6,316 bases of DNA, taken from NCBI GenBank assembly GCA_020833055.1, contig JAJHQZ010000023.1, forward strand, positions 1-6,316, written 5' to 3'. Shown here one piece after another: positions 1-6,316 of this stretch. Below the pieces are notes generated by a model, which did no database searches, was not told where the DNA came from, and saw only the letters and a list, made by a program, of their open reading frames with translations. Origin of the DNA: Candidatus Korarchaeum sp. (GTDB taxonomy: Archaea; Korarchaeota; Korarchaeia; Korarchaeales; Korarchaeaceae). The number at the start of each line of letters is the position of its first letter. Position 1 is the first letter of the stretch. Position numbers and translations under genes: made by a program.

Positions 1-1107
1 GCATTCAATTCCTGGATTGAGAAGGGAAGGGGGATTATAGTGCTGCCCACAGGGGCTGGGAAGACTTACATAGCTCTTAAGGCCATAGAGAGGCTGAGGA
101 AGAGCACCCTCATAATAGTACCGACGATACCCCTCTTGGATCAGTGGAGAGATCTCTTAACTAAGCTGGGGATAGAGGCCGGTATCATAGGAGGAGGTAA
201 ATCTGAGCTGAGGCCAGTTACCGTTATAACTTACGATTCAGCTTACCTGAGATCGGATGAGCTCGGGAATAAGTTCGAGCTCGTCGTGTTCGATGAGGTC
301 CATCATCTGGCTGCGGCTGGGTACATAGAGATAGGGGAATCCCTGGCCTCCCCATACAGGATGGGGCTCACAGCTACCCTGGAGAGGGAGGACGGGAGGC
401 ACAGCTTACTCTTCCCGATAGTGGGGGGAGTGGTCTACAGGATCGGGCCCAAGGAACTAGCTGGTACTCATCTCTCGGAGTTCGATACAGTAAGGATAGG
501 GGTTGAGCTGAGCGAGGAGGAGAGGGCCGAATACGATAAATGCCTGAGGGAGTATAGGGAAGCTCTCAGGGATCTCAAGCTCAGGATCACGGGGATGGAG
601 GACTTCATGAAATTGATAAGGATGAGCTCATCGAATCCAACAGCTAGGAGGGCCCTACTCGCTTGGCACAGGATGAGGAAGATAGCCCTTAACTCCAGAT
701 CGAAACTGGATACCCTTCAAAGCCTTCTGGAGAGCCATAAGGATGATAAGGTCATAATATTCACGGAGTTCAACGAGATGGCTGAGGAGATAAGCAGGAG
801 GTTCCTGATACCACTGATAACACATAGGACGGATAAGAAGGAGAGGAAGGAGGTTCTGGATGCCTTCAGAGTTGGTTCTGTGACGAAGATAGTCACATCC
901 AAGGTGCTGGATGAGGGCTTGGACGTACCCGACGCGAGGGTGGGGATAATACTCGGAGGCACTGGGAGCAGGAGGGAGTTCGTGCAGAGGCTGGGGAGGA
1001 TACTGAGGAAGAGGGAGGGGAAGAGGGCCGTGCTATATGAAGTAATATCGAGGGGGACCAGCGAGGTCAGGGTATCGAGAAGGAGGAGGAAGGCGCTGCA
1101 GCGGTGA
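1..1107 (+). CDS. xpb: XPB/Rad25-family DNA helicase (superfamily 2), 5' end cut off by window
   Basis: This is an ATP-dependent 3'-5' DNA helicase/translocase; archaeal XPB works with the Bax1 nuclease and is thought to act in DNA repair. The frame is open from base 1 (visible residues 1-13 start AFNSWIEKG), so the GTG at 40 inside the Walker A strand is not the true start and the N-terminal damage-recognition domain is missing. In visible numbering: Walker A PTGAGKT 16-22; motif Ia around VPTIPLLDQW; DEVHH box 98-102; TAT motif 124-126; the XPB-specific RED motif 129-131; a charged helical thumb-like insert about 170-230; motif IV KVIIFTEF; motif V TSKVLDEGLDVPDA 299-312; motif VI QRLGRILR 329-336; and a basic tail. 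The RED motif and thumb separate XPB from other superfamily 2 helicases. At least 368 residues remain; archaeal XPBs usually have about 440-500. It is followed directly by bax1, the standard archaeal arrangement. Confidence 0.95.
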   Translation, partial: AFNSWIEKGRGIIVLPTGAGKTYIALKAIERLRKSTLIIVPTIPLLDQWRDLLTKLGIEAGIIGGGKSELRPVTVITYDSAYLRSDELGNKFELVVFDEVHHLAAAGYIEIGESLASPYRMGLTATLEREDGRHSLLFPIVGGVVYRIGPKELAGTHLSEFDTVRIGVELSEEERAEYDKCLREYREALRDLKLRITGMEDFMKLIRMSSSNPTARRALLAWHRMRKIALNSRSKLDTLQSLLESHKDDKVIIFTEFNEMAEEISRRFLIPLITHRTDKKERKEVLDAFRVGSVTKIVTSKVLDEGLDVPDARVGIILGGTGSRREFVQRLGRILRKREGKRAVLYEVISRGTSEVRVSRRRRKALQR

Positions 1108-1108
1108 T
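1103..1108 (+). promoter_or_regulatory. Shine-Dalgarno site of bax1 overlapping the xpb stop codon
   Basis: GGTGAT matches the 3' part of the archaeal consensus AGGAGGTGAT and lies three bases before the ATG at 1112. It contains the TGA stop of the upstream helicase gene, so termination on xpb and initiation on bax1 are probably coupled. It supports the 1112 start over the out-of-frame ATG at 1107. Confidence 0.7.
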
Positions 1109-1111
1109 GCG

Positions 1112-2617
1112 ATGCTCCCATCCCAACTGCTGAGGGGCAAGGTGGTCGGAGGTAAGCTCATATTAAAGTGGGCCCTGGGCAGCGAGCTGGAGCTGGCGGA
1201 GGATCTCATAAGGATCTTCAAAGTGGGGAGGGAGCTGAAGGAGATAGAGGAGGAAGAGGAGGAGATAGAAGAATATTATTCAGATTACAAGCTCGTGAGG
1301 GGTCTATACATCCTTTTGCTTAGGAGAGGGAGATTTGAGAGACCTAAGAGCTCTCTAGATCCTCTGGAAGCTAGGAGGAGGGTTTACGGGATCGTGAATC
1401 GGGATTATCATGGCTTCGTCAGTTATGAGGAGAGGGCTGATGCAATAAGGAGGGCTGCTGAGGAAATAGGAGTCAATGAGGAGGAGCTGGAGAGAGCATT
1501 ATGGGCTGATTTTGAGTTGAAGCTCGTCGAATTCGATGCACCTGAACCGGAGGAGCTATTGAAGGAGTACAACTTAGCCCTGCTCCAGACAGCTCTGTTC
1601 AAGTCCTCGAGGATGCATCTACTCACCTCCTCCTCGGGAGGGGAGGTCAAGCCCCTGCTCAGGGCCCTCAAGGGCCTGGGCCTGATGTACACGGCCAGCA
1701 GGAGGGATAAGCTGGAGCTCACGATAGATGGCCCAGCGTCGATACTCAAGCTGACGACGAAGTACGGAGTGGCTATGGCTAAGCTAGTCCCCTTCATAGT
1801 GAGGATGAGCGATTGGTATCTGAGGGCAGATATAGTGAGGAGGAAGATTGTAAGGCTGGAGGTCTCCCACAGAATGAGGGATATATTTCCAGAGTACGAG
1901 GGGGGCATAGATTACGATAGCTCCCTGGAGAGGGAGTTCCCGCAGATGTGCCCGCAGGGATGGAAGGTATATAGGGAGCCGGAGCCCCTGGTATCCGGAA
2001 GCTCCGTAATAATACCTGATTTCATGCTGGAGAAGGGGAGGATCAGGATATACGTGGAGATAATGGGCTTCTGGACCCCTGAGTACGTCGAGAGGAAGAT
2101 AGAGAAACTGAAGGATGTGAAGGAGCCCCTCCTGATAATAGCTAGGAGGGATCTGATGTGCTCCAGGGTTGAGAAGATCAGGAAGGATATCCTTTACTTC
2201 GAGAGGAAAATAGATCCTGTGGAGCTCGCTAGGAAGCTCAAGGAGATAGAGGAGAGATACTGGTCCGATGAGAGGGATAGGATAAGGGAGGAGATGGCTG
2301 AATTGAGGATAGATGGCAAGTTCCTAGAGGTAGATAAACTTAAATCCATTCTGGGGATAAGTGAAGCTCAACTCAGGGAGATCTGCTGCCCGGAGGGCTT
2401 CGAGCTGATAGGGAGCTATCTGATATCTGAGGAGGCAATCTCATCCCTGAGGGAGGAGGTGATGAAGAGGAGGCCCTCGAAGGTCCGGGAGCTGAAGGGC
2501 ATATTAGTTGATATGGGGCTCCCTCCTGAGATAGCTACTTACGTCCCCGGGAGGATCGGGATCAGGGTATCTTGGAGCTCCCTGGATGAGGACGAAGCCG
2601 ATCTTTTATACACTTGA
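1112..2617 (+). CDS. bax1: Bax1 (DUF790) XPB-partner nuclease
   Basis: This 501-residue protein is the nuclease partner of archaeal XPB; the known XPB-Bax1 complex unwinds and cleaves DNA bubbles and forks. The N-terminus MLPSQLLRGKVVGGKL is typical of DUF790 and fixes the start at 1112. An acidic run of mainly Glu lies at residues 42-54. The middle third is the family's N-terminal and Cas2-like region; the C-terminal half holds the nuclease core. There I see SLERE 271-275, IPDF 301-304 (D303) and YVEIMGFWTPEYVERKI 314-330 (E316, E323, K329). These look like a PD-(D/E)xK-type active site, with D303 and E316 the likely metal ligands. Length matches the family. It starts 4 bases after xpb and must share its transcript. 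Assignment to the family is firm; the exact catalytic residues are my inference. Confidence 0.93.
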   Translation: MLPSQLLRGKVVGGKLILKWALGSELELAEDLIRIFKVGRELKEIEEEEEEIEEYYSDYKLVRGLYILLLRRGRFERPKSSLDPLEARRRVYGIVNRDYHGFVSYEERADAIRRAAEEIGVNEEELERALWADFELKLVEFDAPEPEELLKEYNLALLQTALFKSSRMHLLTSSSGGEVKPLLRALKGLGLMYTASRRDKLELTIDGPASILKLTTKYGVAMAKLVPFIVRMSDWYLRADIVRRKIVRLEVSHRMRDIFPEYEGGIDYDSSLEREFPQMCPQGWKVYREPEPLVSGSSVIIPDFMLEKGRIRIYVEIMGFWTPEYVERKIEKLKDVKEPLLIIARRDLMCSRVEKIRKDILYFERKIDPVELARKLKEIEERYWSDERDRIREEMAELRIDGKFLEVDKLKSILGISEAQLREICCPEGFELIGSYLISEEAISSLREEVMKRRPSKVRELKGILVDMGLPPEIATYVPGRIGIRVSWSSLDEDEADLLYT

Positions 2618-2655: not shown

Positions 2656-5343
2656 ATGAAGCTGGCTCCCCTGCTCTTATCCCTGCTTATAGCTATCCCT
2701 ATTTTCTCAGGCTATCCATTCATGGAAGCTAAGGAGAAAGTGAGTTGCGTCTTAGTATATTATAATCAGAAGCCAATCCCTCCAGAGATCCTCAGAACGC
2801 ACGATTGGATCATAGTGGACCCCGACAACCCTTACGTAAAGCCGGGGAGCGGGAGAGCTAAGCTCATAGCTTACATTAGCGTGGGGGAGATAGAGGAATA
2901 TAGGAGCTACTTCAATGAGATAAAGAAGTACGCTATAGGCTATAACCCAGTCTGGGGGTCTTATGTAGCGGATGTGAGGAATCCAGAGTACAGGAACTTC
3001 CTGATAGAGAGAGTGGCCAGATCCATAGTTGAGAGGGGTTTCGATGGATTCTTCTTAGATACTCTCGATTCATACAAGCTAGTCGCTGATGGAAACGAGA
3101 AGAGCTTCGTTGATGCTCTAGCCGACTTCGTGATAAAACTGAAGCAGAAGTATCCAGATAAGCTAATAGTGATAAACAGGGGATTCGAGATATTCGATTC
3201 CGTCAAGGATTATATAGACGGCTTCCTCTTCGAGGACCTCTTCTGGGGGCTGGATGAGGATCTCAACTACGTCCCAGTGAGCGAGGAGGAGAGGGCATAC
3301 TACTTGGAGAAGCTAAAGCACATAAGTGAGAAGGTCCCTGTCATAGTAGTGGATTATGTAGACCCTAAGGATATGGAGAAGAGAATTAAGGTGATGAAAG
3401 CCATAATTGAGCTCGGTTTCGTGCCCTACATAGCTGATAAGGAGCTATCGGAGATAGGGGTTAACCCCTGCACAGCTGGAATTTCGAGGGGGCCCGAAGT
3501 AATAATATACTTCGATCCGAGGTACGGGAGCAATTGGATAAGGAACCCAGAGGAGTACAAGGAATATCTCTCATCGGTCTTCGATAAATATAACGTGAAT
3601 TACAGGATAGTTGATGCGGATTCCCTGGCCAATATATTATCAGCTGGAGAGAGAGCTATATTGGTACCGACTAGCGATGTACTGCCGGATAAAGTGTGGG
3701 ATGGGACCGAGGGCAGCTTGATAGTGAGGTGGCTGAGGGGAGGGGGAACCATAGTGTGGACGGGGGATTGGGAGTTCTACTACATAGGGCACGAGGGCTG
3801 GATCGAGCGCAGGGATGGGATAGAGGAAGTCCCGTTCGGGAGGAGGGTGACTTCAGATAAAGCAGTTCAGGTGAGGGTTACTGAGATAGGGAGGAAGTAC
3901 ATACCGAGTTTGAGGGGGTTCGAGAGCATGAGGCCCTTCATAGCTCGGGACATGCTGCTGGAGGCTTATGCTAGCTCGGATGGGGCATTCGATCCCGCAG
4001 CAATAAAGGTGGGGGAGGGGACCTTCATAAAGGTAGCTTCATCCACCGATTCCCTCGGGTTCCTCTACGTAGCTGAGCTCATCCTGAACAAATTCTACGG
4101 TTTAGGAGTTAAGTTATCCTCGGAGCCCAGGGTGAGTTTCTGCGGCATAGTCTACATACTCCCATCTAAAGCATCCTCCCCCAAGTGGCAGAGGGAGTAC
4201 GGCGACAGGATATACTTCTACGTCGAGGAAAACTTATCGAAATATAAGGGATTGATAGATGAAGATCTAAAAGTTATATCATCAGCCGGTTATAACTTCA
4301 TAATACTGGTGATACCTCTAGATAATGAGCCCATGTTCCTCAGGAACCTCGAGCTGATGGACGAGCTCGCCCGTGAGAGGGGGCTCGGGATACTCTACGC
4401 TATATTCCCGAAGGAGAAGTACGGGAGGGAGTGGGACTACCTATCGAAGGGGAGTAGCGTGAACTCGGCTCTCCTCAAGCTGATGAACTTCCTATCGAAT
4501 CTTAAGTCAACTCAGGGAATTGCTGTCTGGTACGGTTGGGAGGACAGGAAGTTCGACCCCAGTGAGATAAGGGAGTTCTACCTCTCCCTCCCGGAGAGGA
4601 TGAGGGGCATCTACTGGGTATGGCTCGATGAAGCTTACGTTTTAGAGGCAGTGAAGGCTGGGCTCCCTGAGGATACGCCTGTGGTGACTGAGCTCTACGA
4701 TCCCCTCGAGCTAGCTCTACACAGCGGAGCTTTCAAGAGGCAGATCGTAGTGACTGGCGTGTGGAACGCCGATAGCTCAGCTTCCTGGTTGGGGAGGATG
4801 AGGGAGAAACTGGGGCTCGGGGCTAGCGGGAGGATAGTGGGCGTGTGGATATTCGATGACACTAACGATGGCTTCGGGGAGAAGTACAGGGCTTACATAA
4901 ATGGGGAGCTCTCTAGCCCGATAACGATTGAGAGGATAGGGGACGCACTAGCAATACCATCTTTCAGCGTCGGATCGGATGTAGACCTCAAAATTGTAAG
5001 GAAGCACTTCCCTGATGCTTTAATATCGAATGGAGGAGTTATAGTAGTCGGAGGTCCTCTCTCAAATAGATATAGCTCTATTAAATGGGTGAAATTCACG
5101 AGGGATTCTATGATAGTGAACGGGACTGAGTACAAGAGCTCTTGGGGCAAGGTCGACTACTGCTTGGTGAAGTTGAGCGATAAAAGGGTTTACGTAATGG
5201 GGACTCACAGGTTCGGGACCGAGGCTTGCCTGATGATCCTACCGGAAGTGAAGCAGCTTAACTATGCTATAGCTCAGTGGATGGATAGGAACGGGAACGG
5301 TATCGTGGATAGGGATGAGATAAAGGTTCTGAGAGGAGGATAG
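2656..5343 (+). CDS. Large secreted MJ1477/TM1410-type (GH114-like) glycosidase with S-layer-like and EF-hand C-terminus
   Basis: This 895-residue protein is predicted to be exported and to act on a polysaccharide or glycoprotein outside the cell. Residues 1-25 form a signal peptide (K2, hydrophobic 4-17, possible cleavage after MEA). Residues 30-262 are a GH114-like barrel: LIAYISVGEIEEY with E78, DVRNPEYRNF, FDGFFLDTLDSY with D135 and D138, VINRGFEIF, LFEDLFW with E193. D135 and E193 are candidate catalytic acids. About 280-380 resembles a class I amidotransferase/ThuA-like domain (RGGGTIVWTGDWEFYYIG) without an obvious nucleophile Cys. About 494-745 is another alpha/beta, barrel-like region I cannot assign. 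About 780-862 resembles archaeal S-layer domains (VVVGGPLSNRYSS, then VMGTHRFGTEACL). Residues 877-888 form an EF-hand loop. There is no C-terminal membrane anchor. GH114 includes endo-alpha-1,4-polygalactosaminidases, but the substrate here is unknown. An upstream in-frame ATG at 2635 runs into TAA, so 2656 is the start. Confidence 0.85.
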   Translation: MKLAPLLLSLLIAIPIFSGYPFMEAKEKVSCVLVYYNQKPIPPEILRTHDWIIVDPDNPYVKPGSGRAKLIAYISVGEIEEYRSYFNEIKKYAIGYNPVWGSYVADVRNPEYRNFLIERVARSIVERGFDGFFLDTLDSYKLVADGNEKSFVDALADFVIKLKQKYPDKLIVINRGFEIFDSVKDYIDGFLFEDLFWGLDEDLNYVPVSEEERAYYLEKLKHISEKVPVIVVDYVDPKDMEKRIKVMKAIIELGFVPYIADKELSEIGVNPCTAGISRGPEVIIYFDPRYGSNWIRNPEEYKEYLSSVFDKYNVNYRIVDADSLANILSAGERAILVPTSDVLPDKVWDGTEGSLIVRWLRGGGTIVWTGDWEFYYIGHEGWIERRDGIEEVPFGRRVTSDKAVQVRVTEIGRKYIPSLRGFESMRPFIARDMLLEAYASSDGAFDPAAIKVGEGTFIKVASSTDSLGFLYVAELILNKFYGLGVKLSSEPRVSFCGIVYILPSKASSPKWQREYGDRIYFYVEENLSKYKGLIDEDLKVISSAGYNFIILVIPLDNEPMFLRNLELMDELARERGLGILYAIFPKEKYGREWDYLSKGSSVNSALLKLMNFLSNLKSTQGIAVWYGWEDRKFDPSEIREFYLSLPERMRGIYWVWLDEAYVLEAVKAGLPEDTPVVTELYDPLELALHSGAFKRQIVVTGVWNADSSASWLGRMREKLGLGASGRIVGVWIFDDTNDGFGEKYRAYINGELSSPITIERIGDALAIPSFSVGSDVDLKIVRKHFPDALISNGGVIVVGGPLSNRYSSIKWVKFTRDSMIVNGTEYKSSWGKVDYCLVKLSDKRVYVMGTHRFGTEACLMILPEVKQLNYAIAQWMDRNGNGIVDRDEIKVLRGG
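5284..5319 (+). other. EF-hand/dockerin-like calcium-binding loop at the C-terminus of the secreted protein
   Basis: The twelve residues DRNGNGIVDRDE (877-888) fit the EF-hand loop: D at 1, N at 3, N at 5, G at 6, V at 8, D at 9 and E at 12. Only one such loop is visible, so it resembles half of a dockerin or a single structural calcium site, seven residues before the end of the protein. Calcium binding is inferred from the motif. Confidence 0.75.
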
Positions 5344-5354
5344 GCTACCTCCTC
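5333..5354. terminator. Inverted repeat across the two convergent stop codons, possible two-way terminator
   Basis: GAGGAGG (5333-5339) and its exact complement CCTCCTC (5348-5354) flank an 8-base loop holding the TAG stop of the + strand gene (5341-5343) and the TAG stop of the - strand gene (5345-5347). Either transcript could form the 7-bp hairpin. A short T-run (TATTTTC) follows about 10 bases later on the + strand. Archaeal termination depends mainly on T-rich tracts and not on hairpins, so a terminator role is tentative, and the repeat may reflect both genes ending in GGA/AGG-rich codons. Confidence 0.35.
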
Positions 5355-5851
5355 AATCTGAATATTTTCAGCCTGGGCTTCTTCGTCTCTATAGGCTCTA
5401 ATATCAGCTTCAGGGGTATCTCCTTCCTCAAAACTAAGTTTATCACTGAGCCGAGTTGGAAGAGCACCTCCTCCTGCTCGCTAGATTCTATAGCTCCGGG
5501 CCTCACCCTCCTCACTTGATCTATAGCGGCTTTAGGGGTCATCCCCTTGAATATCAAGTAAGCAGCAGCGACGGTACCTGCTCTCCCCACACCGGCGAAG
5601 CAGTGGATAGCTACGGGCTTCCCCCTAGTAGCTCTAGATGAGATCCAAGTCAGCAAATCTATCAGTTCCCTGATGTCAGGGGCTCCCTTTGGCTCTATAG
5701 GCAGGAAATAGAATTCCATACCTTCTGAGATCACATTGGCTTCGTACGTTAGTATGCCTCCCCAGAAAGGGTATATCTCCCTCTCAGTCGCCAGGCAGAC
5801 TATAGCTTTTATCCCCATAGATTTGATGGCCTTTATGTCCTCCCTCCTCAC
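5345..5851 (-). CDS. Small archaeal protein tyrosine/dual-specificity phosphatase (SsoPTP-like)
   Basis: This cytoplasmic enzyme belongs to the cysteine-based phosphatases that remove phosphate from tyrosine or serine/threonine residues. The P-loop HCFAGVGRAGT is at residues 83-93 from the GTG at 5851, with nucleophile C84 and phosphate-binding R90. After it, IDQVRRVRPGAIESSEQE matches the C-terminal helix region of Sulfolobus SsoPTP as I remember it. Two oddities: the loop that normally carries the general-acid Asp reads PIEPKGAPD, with Pro54 where Asp is expected and Glu53 beside it; and 15 more codons upstream align without gaps to the N-terminus of SsoPTP, although GTG 5851 is the first usual start codon. 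With that extension the protein has 183 residues and its cysteine is residue 99, close to Cys96 of SsoPTP. A basic tail (KKPRLKIFRLRR) extends beyond the usual 150-165 residues. It lies downstream of rubredoxin and is probably cotranscribed with it. Confidence 0.9.
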   Translation of the reverse strand: MRREDIKAIKSMGIKAIVCLATEREIYPFWGGILTYEANVISEGMEFYFLPIEPKGAPDIRELIDLLTWISSRATRGKPVAIHCFAGVGRAGTVAAAYLIFKGMTPKAAIDQVRRVRPGAIESSEQEEVLFQLGSVINLVLRKEIPLKLILEPIETKKPRLKIFRLRR

Positions 5852-5899
5852 GGGGATCCTGGATATAGCTATCTCGTTCGGGATGACCCAGGTTATCAG
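5852..5899 (-). other. Probable translated N-terminal extension of the phosphatase with no standard start codon
   Basis: In frame upstream of GTG 5851 the sequence reads LITWVIPNEIAISRIP. From the ATA codon at 5896 it aligns without gaps to the SsoPTP start (MYWVRRKTIGGSGLP, from memory): Trp-Val, the Ile, Ser and Pro all match, and this stretch forms the first strand of the fold. The only possible initiators are CTG at 5899 and ATA at 5896. GGGGATC at 5909-5903, resembling GGTGATC, lies three bases before CTG 5899. The weaker alternative is GTG 5851, preceded by AGGATC at 5860-5855. Confidence 0.55.
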
Positions 5900-5902
5900 A
5901 TG

Positions 5903-5909
5903 GATCCCC
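5903..5909 (-). promoter_or_regulatory. Possible Shine-Dalgarno site for the extended phosphatase start
   Basis: GGGGATC differs by one base from the GGTGATC part of the archaeal consensus and lies three bases before CTG 5899 and six before ATA 5896, two bases after the rubredoxin stop codon. It is similar in form and spacing to the bax1 site in this window. Evidence is modest because the sequences here are generally purine-rich. Confidence 0.4.
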
Positions 5910-5911
5910 TT

Positions 5912-6082
5912 TTAATACTCCTCATCCAACGGGTAGAACTGGCTCTTAGGGGCGCCGCAGATGGGGCATCTCCAATCATCGGGGAGCTCCTCGAAGGGAG
6001 TGCCCGGCTTGATCCCCCTACTCTCATCCCCCCTCATTGGATCATATATGTAGCCGCATACGCTACATTTATACCTTATCAT
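5912..6082 (-). CDS. Rubredoxin
   Basis: This 56-residue cytoplasmic protein carries one iron held by four cysteines and passes single electrons, commonly to superoxide reductase, rubrerythrin or other oxygen-handling enzymes. From ATG 6082 the protein starts [15 protein letters not shown]; the ligands are C6 and C9 in CSVCG and C39 and C42 in CPICG. The family pattern [17 protein letters not shown] is complete, and the length is standard (about 52-56). TTG 6100 and ATG 6097 would add five or six residues not typical of the family, while ATG 6082 lies 27-28 bases from a TATA box, so I chose it. The stop is TAA, followed in the same frame by the phosphatase. No oxygen-stress partner gene is in the window, so its redox partner is unknown. 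Confidence 0.93.
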
Positions 6083-6104
6083 AACGTTATATTGCATCAA
6101 GATA

Positions 6105-6114
6105 TTATAATAAA
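6105..6114 (-). promoter_or_regulatory. TATA box for rubredoxin (probably leaderless)
   Basis: On the minus strand TTTATTATAA lies in the most AT-rich stretch of the window, directly after the stop codon of the repeat-protein gene. Its centre is 27-28 bases before ATG 6082, and no purine-rich ribosome binding site precedes that ATG. This parallels the promoter at 2626-2632 and suggests transcription starts at the ATG and continues into the phosphatase gene. Confidence 0.6.
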
Positions 6115-6115
6115 T

Positions 6116-6316
6116 TTATCTGAAGAGAGCCCTAGAGAGGGCTAACTTCCTCACGAGCTCATTCTGATCATTGGAGAGCTTAGCTAATACTTCGATCGGA
6201 GTAGATGTATTTAAAGCGACTGCCAGTCTTATCTCCTCATCTCTCTCCTCCGCTAGCTTCTCAAGGATCTTAGGGCTAGTATTTGGATCCAGGGCCAATC
6301 TCAACTTCATGAGGGG
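6116..6316 (-). CDS. LRV/HEAT-like helical repeat protein, C-terminal part or short complete gene
   Basis: The protein consists of 26-residue alpha-helical repeats. Taking ATG 6310 as residue 1, repeats begin at 1, 27 and 53: compare KLRLALDPNTSPKILEKLAEE with RLAVALNTSTPIEVLAKLSND; the third repeat breaks off at RKLALSRALFR and the stop. The NPNTP-EVL-KLA pattern with an acidic linker is that of leucine-rich repeat variant (LRV) or HEAT-like proteins, which usually serve as protein-binding scaffolds. The frame stays open to the window edge (codons for Pro and Leu before the Met) and no ribosome binding site is visible in those six bases, so a longer gene starting outside the window is likely; a 64-residue protein from ATG 6310 is the alternative. 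There is no cysteine in the visible part, so the iron-sulphur cluster of the Azotobacter LRV protein is not evident. Partner unknown. Confidence 0.7.
   Translation of the reverse strand, partial: PLMKLRLALDPNTSPKILEKLAEERDEEIRLAVALNTSTPIEVLAKLSNDQNELVRKLALSRALFR

Follow-up and report, generated by a model that had tools for sequence, protein, structure and literature searches.

What would a sugar-cutting barrel of the bacterial PelA lineage be doing on a secreted protein of a hot-spring archaeon whose genome has no Pel synthesis genes, and what are the other domains to which it is joined? The question is raised by an open reading frame (ORF) of Candidatus Korarchaeum sp., found in a stretch of 6,316 nucleotides (contig JAJHQZ010000023.1 of assembly GCA_020833055.1, hereafter the window); positions below are those of the window, and residues those of the 895-amino-acid (aa) product of the ORF. 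The answer that we favor, with a probability of about 0.5, is an exported korarchaeal enzyme held at the cell surface and cutting the alpha-1,4-linked galactosamine or N-acetylgalactosamine polymers (Pel-like or galactosaminogalactan-like) of neighboring organisms; we infer both the substrate and the anchoring. New points are the fusion itself, a second barrel without a family, and a C-terminal module found across the phylum. Neither the 895-aa protein nor this tail module was found described in the literature, most subscription journals being outside the coverage. The features on which the argument draws are the following:

2656..5343, + strand: whole ORF, presumably exported five-module protein of 895 aa (open frame; full-length orthologues)
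2656..2730, + strand: signal-peptide-like segment, residues 1-25, hydrophobic over 1-24 (hydrophobicity windows)
2743..3465, + strand: module 1, residues 30-270, (beta/alpha)8 barrel assigned to the PelA hydrolase (GH166) lineage (Pfam, PDB sequence match, model, fold search, tree)
3058..3060, + strand: D135, end of strand 4, counterpart of PelA D160 (conservation, alignment, model)
3232..3234, + strand: E193, end of strand 6, counterpart of PelA E218 (conservation, alignment, model)
3490..4116, + strand: module 2, residues 279-487, amidotransferase/ThuA-like alpha/beta domain of an archaeal family (model, fold search, relatives)
4138..4923, + strand: module 3, residues 495-756, second (beta/alpha)8 barrel of an undescribed family (model, fold search, conserved residues)
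4963..5259, + strand: module 4, residues 770-868, S_layer_C-related portion of the C-terminal module (conservation, distribution, Pfam matches of relatives)
5284..5319, + strand: module 5, residues 877-888, calcium-loop-like motif DRNGNGIVDRDE of the same C-terminal module (conservation in 30 modules)

An earlier note, made from the letters of the sequence, had read five modules in this order (barrel, alpha/beta domain, barrel, S-layer-like domain, EF-hand-like end) on an exported chain, and both points hold. The sole 19-residue windows of the chain with a hydrophobicity above 1.6, that is, at the level of a membrane helix, begin at residues 1-6, and residues 1-24 are consistent with a signal peptide. 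Full-length orthologues exist at 97% identity (L003, from a genome assembled as one contig of 1,590,757 bases) and at 78-79% (L033), the nearest named full-length match being Ca. Methanodesulfokora washburnensis. In our phylum sample of 29 Korarchaeota genomes, the window's own included, the full five-module architecture with its glycoside hydrolase (GH) barrel occurs in three. Relatives were compared in two half-length alignments, in place of a single one mixing full-length and fragment rows.

To which family does the first barrel belong? It had been read as GH114-like, of the MJ1477/TM1410 type, and profile searches divide this claim: the Pfam GH114 model (Glyco_hydro_114) matches residues 67-265 with an E-value of 6e-20 and 72 bits, against a gathering cut-off of 27, whereas TIGR01370, the MJ1477/TM1410 model, gives 67 bits, under its curated cut-off of 181, archaeal members above that cut-off reaching 234-467 bits. 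The barrel itself is retained from the earlier reading, with PelA (GH166) as a nearer relative. A phmmer search against PDB sequences returns PelA entries 9cgy and 5tcb as best matches (E-values of 1e-22 to 1e-21, 9cgy at 1e-22), the next family following at 2e-4. Structure prediction with per-domain fold searches agrees: a Foldseek search with the AlphaFold model of residues 26-490 (mean predicted local distance difference test score of 88) ranks PelA first, and a second structure aligner superposes barrel 1 and the PelA hydrolase with a Z score of 27.8 (2.4 A over 241 residues), compared with Z 25 for GH191 and Z 20 for fungal GH114 at 12-14% identity. Bacterial PelA proteins match barrel 1 at 32-34% identity, with E-values down to 4e-36; among the bacterial matches are PelA proteins whose annotation names a glycoside hydrolase and a polysaccharide deacetylase, some of them adjoin a gene for a TPR protein, and one matched hydrolase adjoins pelF and pelG. 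In a superfamily tree of 28 barrels, among them bacterial PelA and archaeal MJ1477/TM1410 proteins, the korarchaeal pair (the window protein and L033) groups with six bacterial PelA-type barrels (support 99/96, and 97/94 with a long-branch row added), and the archaeal MJ1477/TM1410 proteins fall on a separate side. Because PelA is nearest by sequence, fold and tree, barrel 1 is, on these comparisons, best placed with GH166 (PelA) and not with fungal GH114 or GH191.

The galactosaminidases described for GH114, GH135 and GH166 cut within the chain by a retaining mechanism and share conserved active-site residues (PMC12054363), and the two residues singled out beforehand as catalytic, D135 and E193, stand where such residues would be expected to lie. 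D135 is the last residue of model strand 106-110 (strand 4) and is invariant in 29 relatives; E193 is the last residue of model strand 164-168 (strand 6) and is kept in more than 90% of them. Their aligned counterparts in PelA are D160 and E218, both altered in a hydrolase-dead mutant (PMC12022489), E218 being an alanine in 5tsy. An enzyme for some other polymer (fucan, dextran-like, or an undescribed archaeal exopolysaccharide), having nothing but the fold in common with PelA, nevertheless has to be considered: both the GH168 fucanases and the GH66 dextranases have this fold (Z 16-20), and the Pfam GH66 and GHL15 models match barrel 1 barely over their cut-offs. We consider it somewhat unlikely, as it sits poorly with the proximity of PelA by all three measures, and with the motifs FFLDTLDSY and NRGFE, which barrel 1 has in common with PelA in particular. 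Stand-alone archaeal barrels at 36-37% identity to barrel 1 (L085-L088, in G200, G130, G318 and G383) also carry the PelA-shared NRGFE motif, and an 830-aa protein (L130, G113:C18, 2409-4898, - strand) combines two tandem GH114-superfamily barrels from opposite sides of the tree.

Does the resemblance to PelA extend beyond the barrel? The fold alignment to full-length PelA (9cgy) spans both of the first two domains, covering 391 residues (model 3-465). In the PelA structure the barrel likewise precedes an alpha/beta domain, and ThuA-like proteins are among the best structural matches of that domain (PMC12022489), so that the amidotransferase/ThuA-like domain proposed by the earlier note is a sensible idea, and the model of this region is indeed alpha/beta; what does not accompany it is a family match, as no Pfam or NCBIfam model matches domain 2, and its profile search against PDB sequences gives no match at an E-value of 10. 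A comparison of domain 2 with domain 2 of PelA by hhalign returns a probability of 0.5%, with no detectable sequence kinship. Joint inheritance of barrel 1 and domain 2 from PelA was considered and is not favored, the profile comparison giving it no support. Relatives of domain 2 can stand alone in other archaea (L035 and L036, of which L036 has a signal peptide and, at its C-terminus, a membrane helix), and domain 2 is followed by barrel 2 with no GH barrel in L005-L007 (Korarchaeota) and L034 (Thermofilum sp. NZ13). Since such relatives without a GH barrel exist, a PelA-type barrel was probably joined onto an archaeal protein that already combined domain 2 and barrel 2. Further domain 2 relatives from other archaea are embedded in giant open frames, one of 5151 aa (L056 in G194) and one of 3961 aa (L061 in G255).

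The second barrel-like domain suspected from the letters is an eight-stranded barrel in the predicted model, nearest to GH5-type barrels (Z about 18) at 9-16% identity, and no Pfam or NCBIfam model matches it. Homologues were found only in Korarchaeota and in Thermofilum NZ13, some standing alone and some C-terminal of a WbsX/GH99-like domain (L008). The glutamate pair that clan GH-A carries on strands 4 and 7 is absent, the strand 4 position being E, K or R in orthologues; conserved acids are instead found at strands 5, 6 and 8, with none at strand 7. Nine residues are invariant (D517, K586, W628, R631, D658, E679, D735, D738 and E742); they are located at the C-terminal strand ends, close to these ends, or in the loops after them, the usual active-site face of barrel enzymes. 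We infer that barrel 2 would be an active, undescribed glycosidase-type barrel. The same residues bear on the idea of a non-catalytic adhesin, in which the barrels would bind sugars and the tail fix the cell to a mat: a multi-module surface protein would suit it, as would the membrane-helix-bearing form of domain 2 that stands alone in other archaea (L036), but the catalytic residues of barrel 1, D135 and E193, are both kept in three species, and barrel 2 retains invariant acids at its catalytic face, which makes an adhesin very improbable.

What would hold such an enzyme at the surface? The S-layer-like domain and the EF-hand announced for the end of the chain are both supported, but they are better described as one conserved, phylum-wide module (residues 770-895) than as two domains. 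Its invariant residues are G799, G849, G854, T855, W875 and D877, and a twelve-residue EF-hand-type loop, DxNxNGxVxxxE, stands at 877-888 across 30 modules, D877 being invariant and N879, V884 and E888 conserved in at least 90%. The Pfam EF-hand models (PF00036/PF13405) stay below threshold (13.2 bits, cut-off 25), and calcium binding by the loop is putative. Pfam S_layer_C (PF05124) matches seven of the 30 tail modules weakly (best E-value 1e-5); for the window protein alone it is not listed at an E-value of 5, so that the kinship is visible via relatives only. The module is present in all 29 Korarchaeota genomes, with from one to at least 11 copies each; outside the phylum, among 394 archaeal genomes, comparably strong matches number three, with weaker ones in about 100. 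It ends no more than 15 residues from the C-terminus in all relatives examined but one. Its carriers include a GH113 mannanase, family-5 solute-binding proteins, and CARDB and Big_2 proteins, and at one locus (L127, G015:C126, 367-14851) six consecutive same-strand genes, of 377, 949, 935, 378, 1336 and 276 aa (the last one cut), each end in it.

The K. cryptofilum GH113 enzyme ACB07175.1 is an endo-mannanase (PMC9032380), and genome G009 carries the tail module on its sole GH113 (L067, an intact ORF of 439 aa), which, being the only one in that genome, is probably ACB07175.1; a tail-bearing glycosidase acting on an outside polymer is therefore probably already known. In the window's genome the GH113 mannanase gene (L069, G000:C4, 3909-5228) is split into ORFs of 275 and 143 aa, by either sequencing error or decay. 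K. cryptofilum has a dense S-layer (PMC5744192), and the tail would dock its carriers to this layer. Tentatively, and with somewhat more doubt than confidence, we regard the tail as a korarchaeal surface-docking tag, descended from an S-layer outer domain, equipped with a calcium loop and carried at the C-terminus by enzymes, transporter binding proteins and other exports that it would lock into the dense S-layer, and residues 495-756 as a new catalytic barrel family. Read as a docking tag, the tail would be likened to type IX C-terminal domains or to dockerins.

Whose polymer is cut, then? The earlier note had left a choice between the archaeon's own glycan coat and foreign exopolysaccharide, and the second fares better. 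The PelF and PelG families have no member in the window's genome (1.39 Mb, 99.5% complete), nor in 27 of the 28 other genomes of the phylum sample, and because this genome is without Pel synthesis genes, cutting of foreign polymers is favored over remodeling of the own coat; with the architecture confined to three of 29 genomes, an accessory role on the polymers of neighbors fits better as well. For an enzyme that trims a self-made galactosamine-containing polymer or an S-layer glycan, as PelA does with Pel, it may be said that the tail would keep it on the cell's own surface, and that the polymer on which PelA acts is likewise produced by the cell itself (PMC12022489). We nevertheless judge own-coat remodeling unlikely, as PelF and PelG are found in neither the window's genome nor G009, the PelA deacetylase domain is not part of the chain, and most congeners lack the GH barrel although they have the tail module and, presumably, the same type of wall (barrel in 3/29, tail in 29/29). 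The exception among the 28 genomes is distant (G027) and has both families; two PelF-family genes and one PelG-family gene on its contig C3 may form an archaeal Pel-type cluster. In G027 and G028, single chains (L020 and L021) unite a GHL13 (PgaB-like) domain, an S_layer_C-like stretch and a MJ1477/TM1410-type barrel.

An enzyme directed at neighbors' galactosamine polymers would be exported by the Sec pathway, and its GH166-type barrel, with D135 and E193 as the catalytic pair, would be an endo-acting, retaining enzyme. Behind this barrel the ThuA-like domain may pack as it does in PelA, with a likely structural or sugar-binding role. The second barrel, in which D658, E679 and D735 are candidate active-site acids, would probably trim the products or else a linked sugar. 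Docking in the S-layer would fall to the C-terminal module, whose last loop would bind calcium. Several points weigh against this explanation: the superfamily also includes GH168 fucanases (Z 18-20) and GH66 dextranases, so that the fold does not fix the substrate of barrel 1; PelF and PelG represent the only synthesis route searched, so that an endogenous galactosamine polymer might be made by another route; the tail module might aid folding or stability in place of anchoring; and the neighboring genes in the window (XPB-Bax1, phosphatase and rubredoxin) give no hint of sugar use. The gene neighborhoods of the orthologues that were inspected likewise contain no sugar-related operon. The rest of the window (1-2617 and 5345-6316) encodes a fragment of an XPB-type helicase with a Bax1 nuclease (Pfam DUF790) and, on the - strand, a dual-specificity-type phosphatase; the rubredoxin-like ORF was identified by eye.

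A PelA-type hydrolase in a hot-spring archaeon, uncoupled from Pel synthesis and fused with a new barrel, would extend a biofilm-cutting lineage, and the protein carrying barrel 1 is a candidate heat-stable enzyme. The tail, present in every sampled Korarchaeota genome, could explain how enzymes and receptors are displayed on the S-layer in these mostly uncultured archaea, and provides a simple sequence handle for listing korarchaeal surface proteins. Some GH113 enzymes have a C-terminal extension without assignment (PMC9032380), for which the tail module offers a likely identity.

How does the korarchaeal protein compare with known systems? Pseudomonas PelA (GH166 hydrolase, alpha/beta domain and CE deacetylase; PDB 9CGY and 5TCB) is the closest, the barrel being 25-26% identical to 5tcb, and its N-terminal half shows the same succession of a barrel and an alpha/beta domain. 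Unlike in PelA, the place of the deacetylase is taken by an unrelated (beta/alpha)8 barrel, with no CE4/CE18-like domain, the chain ends in an S-layer-like tail, and the genome has no pelF or pelG. With GH191 and the MJ1477/TM1410 proteins the fold is common (Z 25), but the window barrel misses the TIGR01370 cut-off and lies on the other side of the tree; with GH114 (fungal Ega3 and FsGH114) the fold is again common (Z 20) and the Pfam model is passed, but identity is lower (12-14%). The korarchaeal tail differs from the S-layer outer domain of Pfam S_layer_C by its calcium-loop end, its extreme C-terminal place, and its enzyme and binding-protein carriers. Finally, the K. cryptofilum GH113 mannanase ACB07175.1 belongs to another catalytic family and has a single barrel, but it is exported, comes from the same archaeal group, and apparently carries the same tail.
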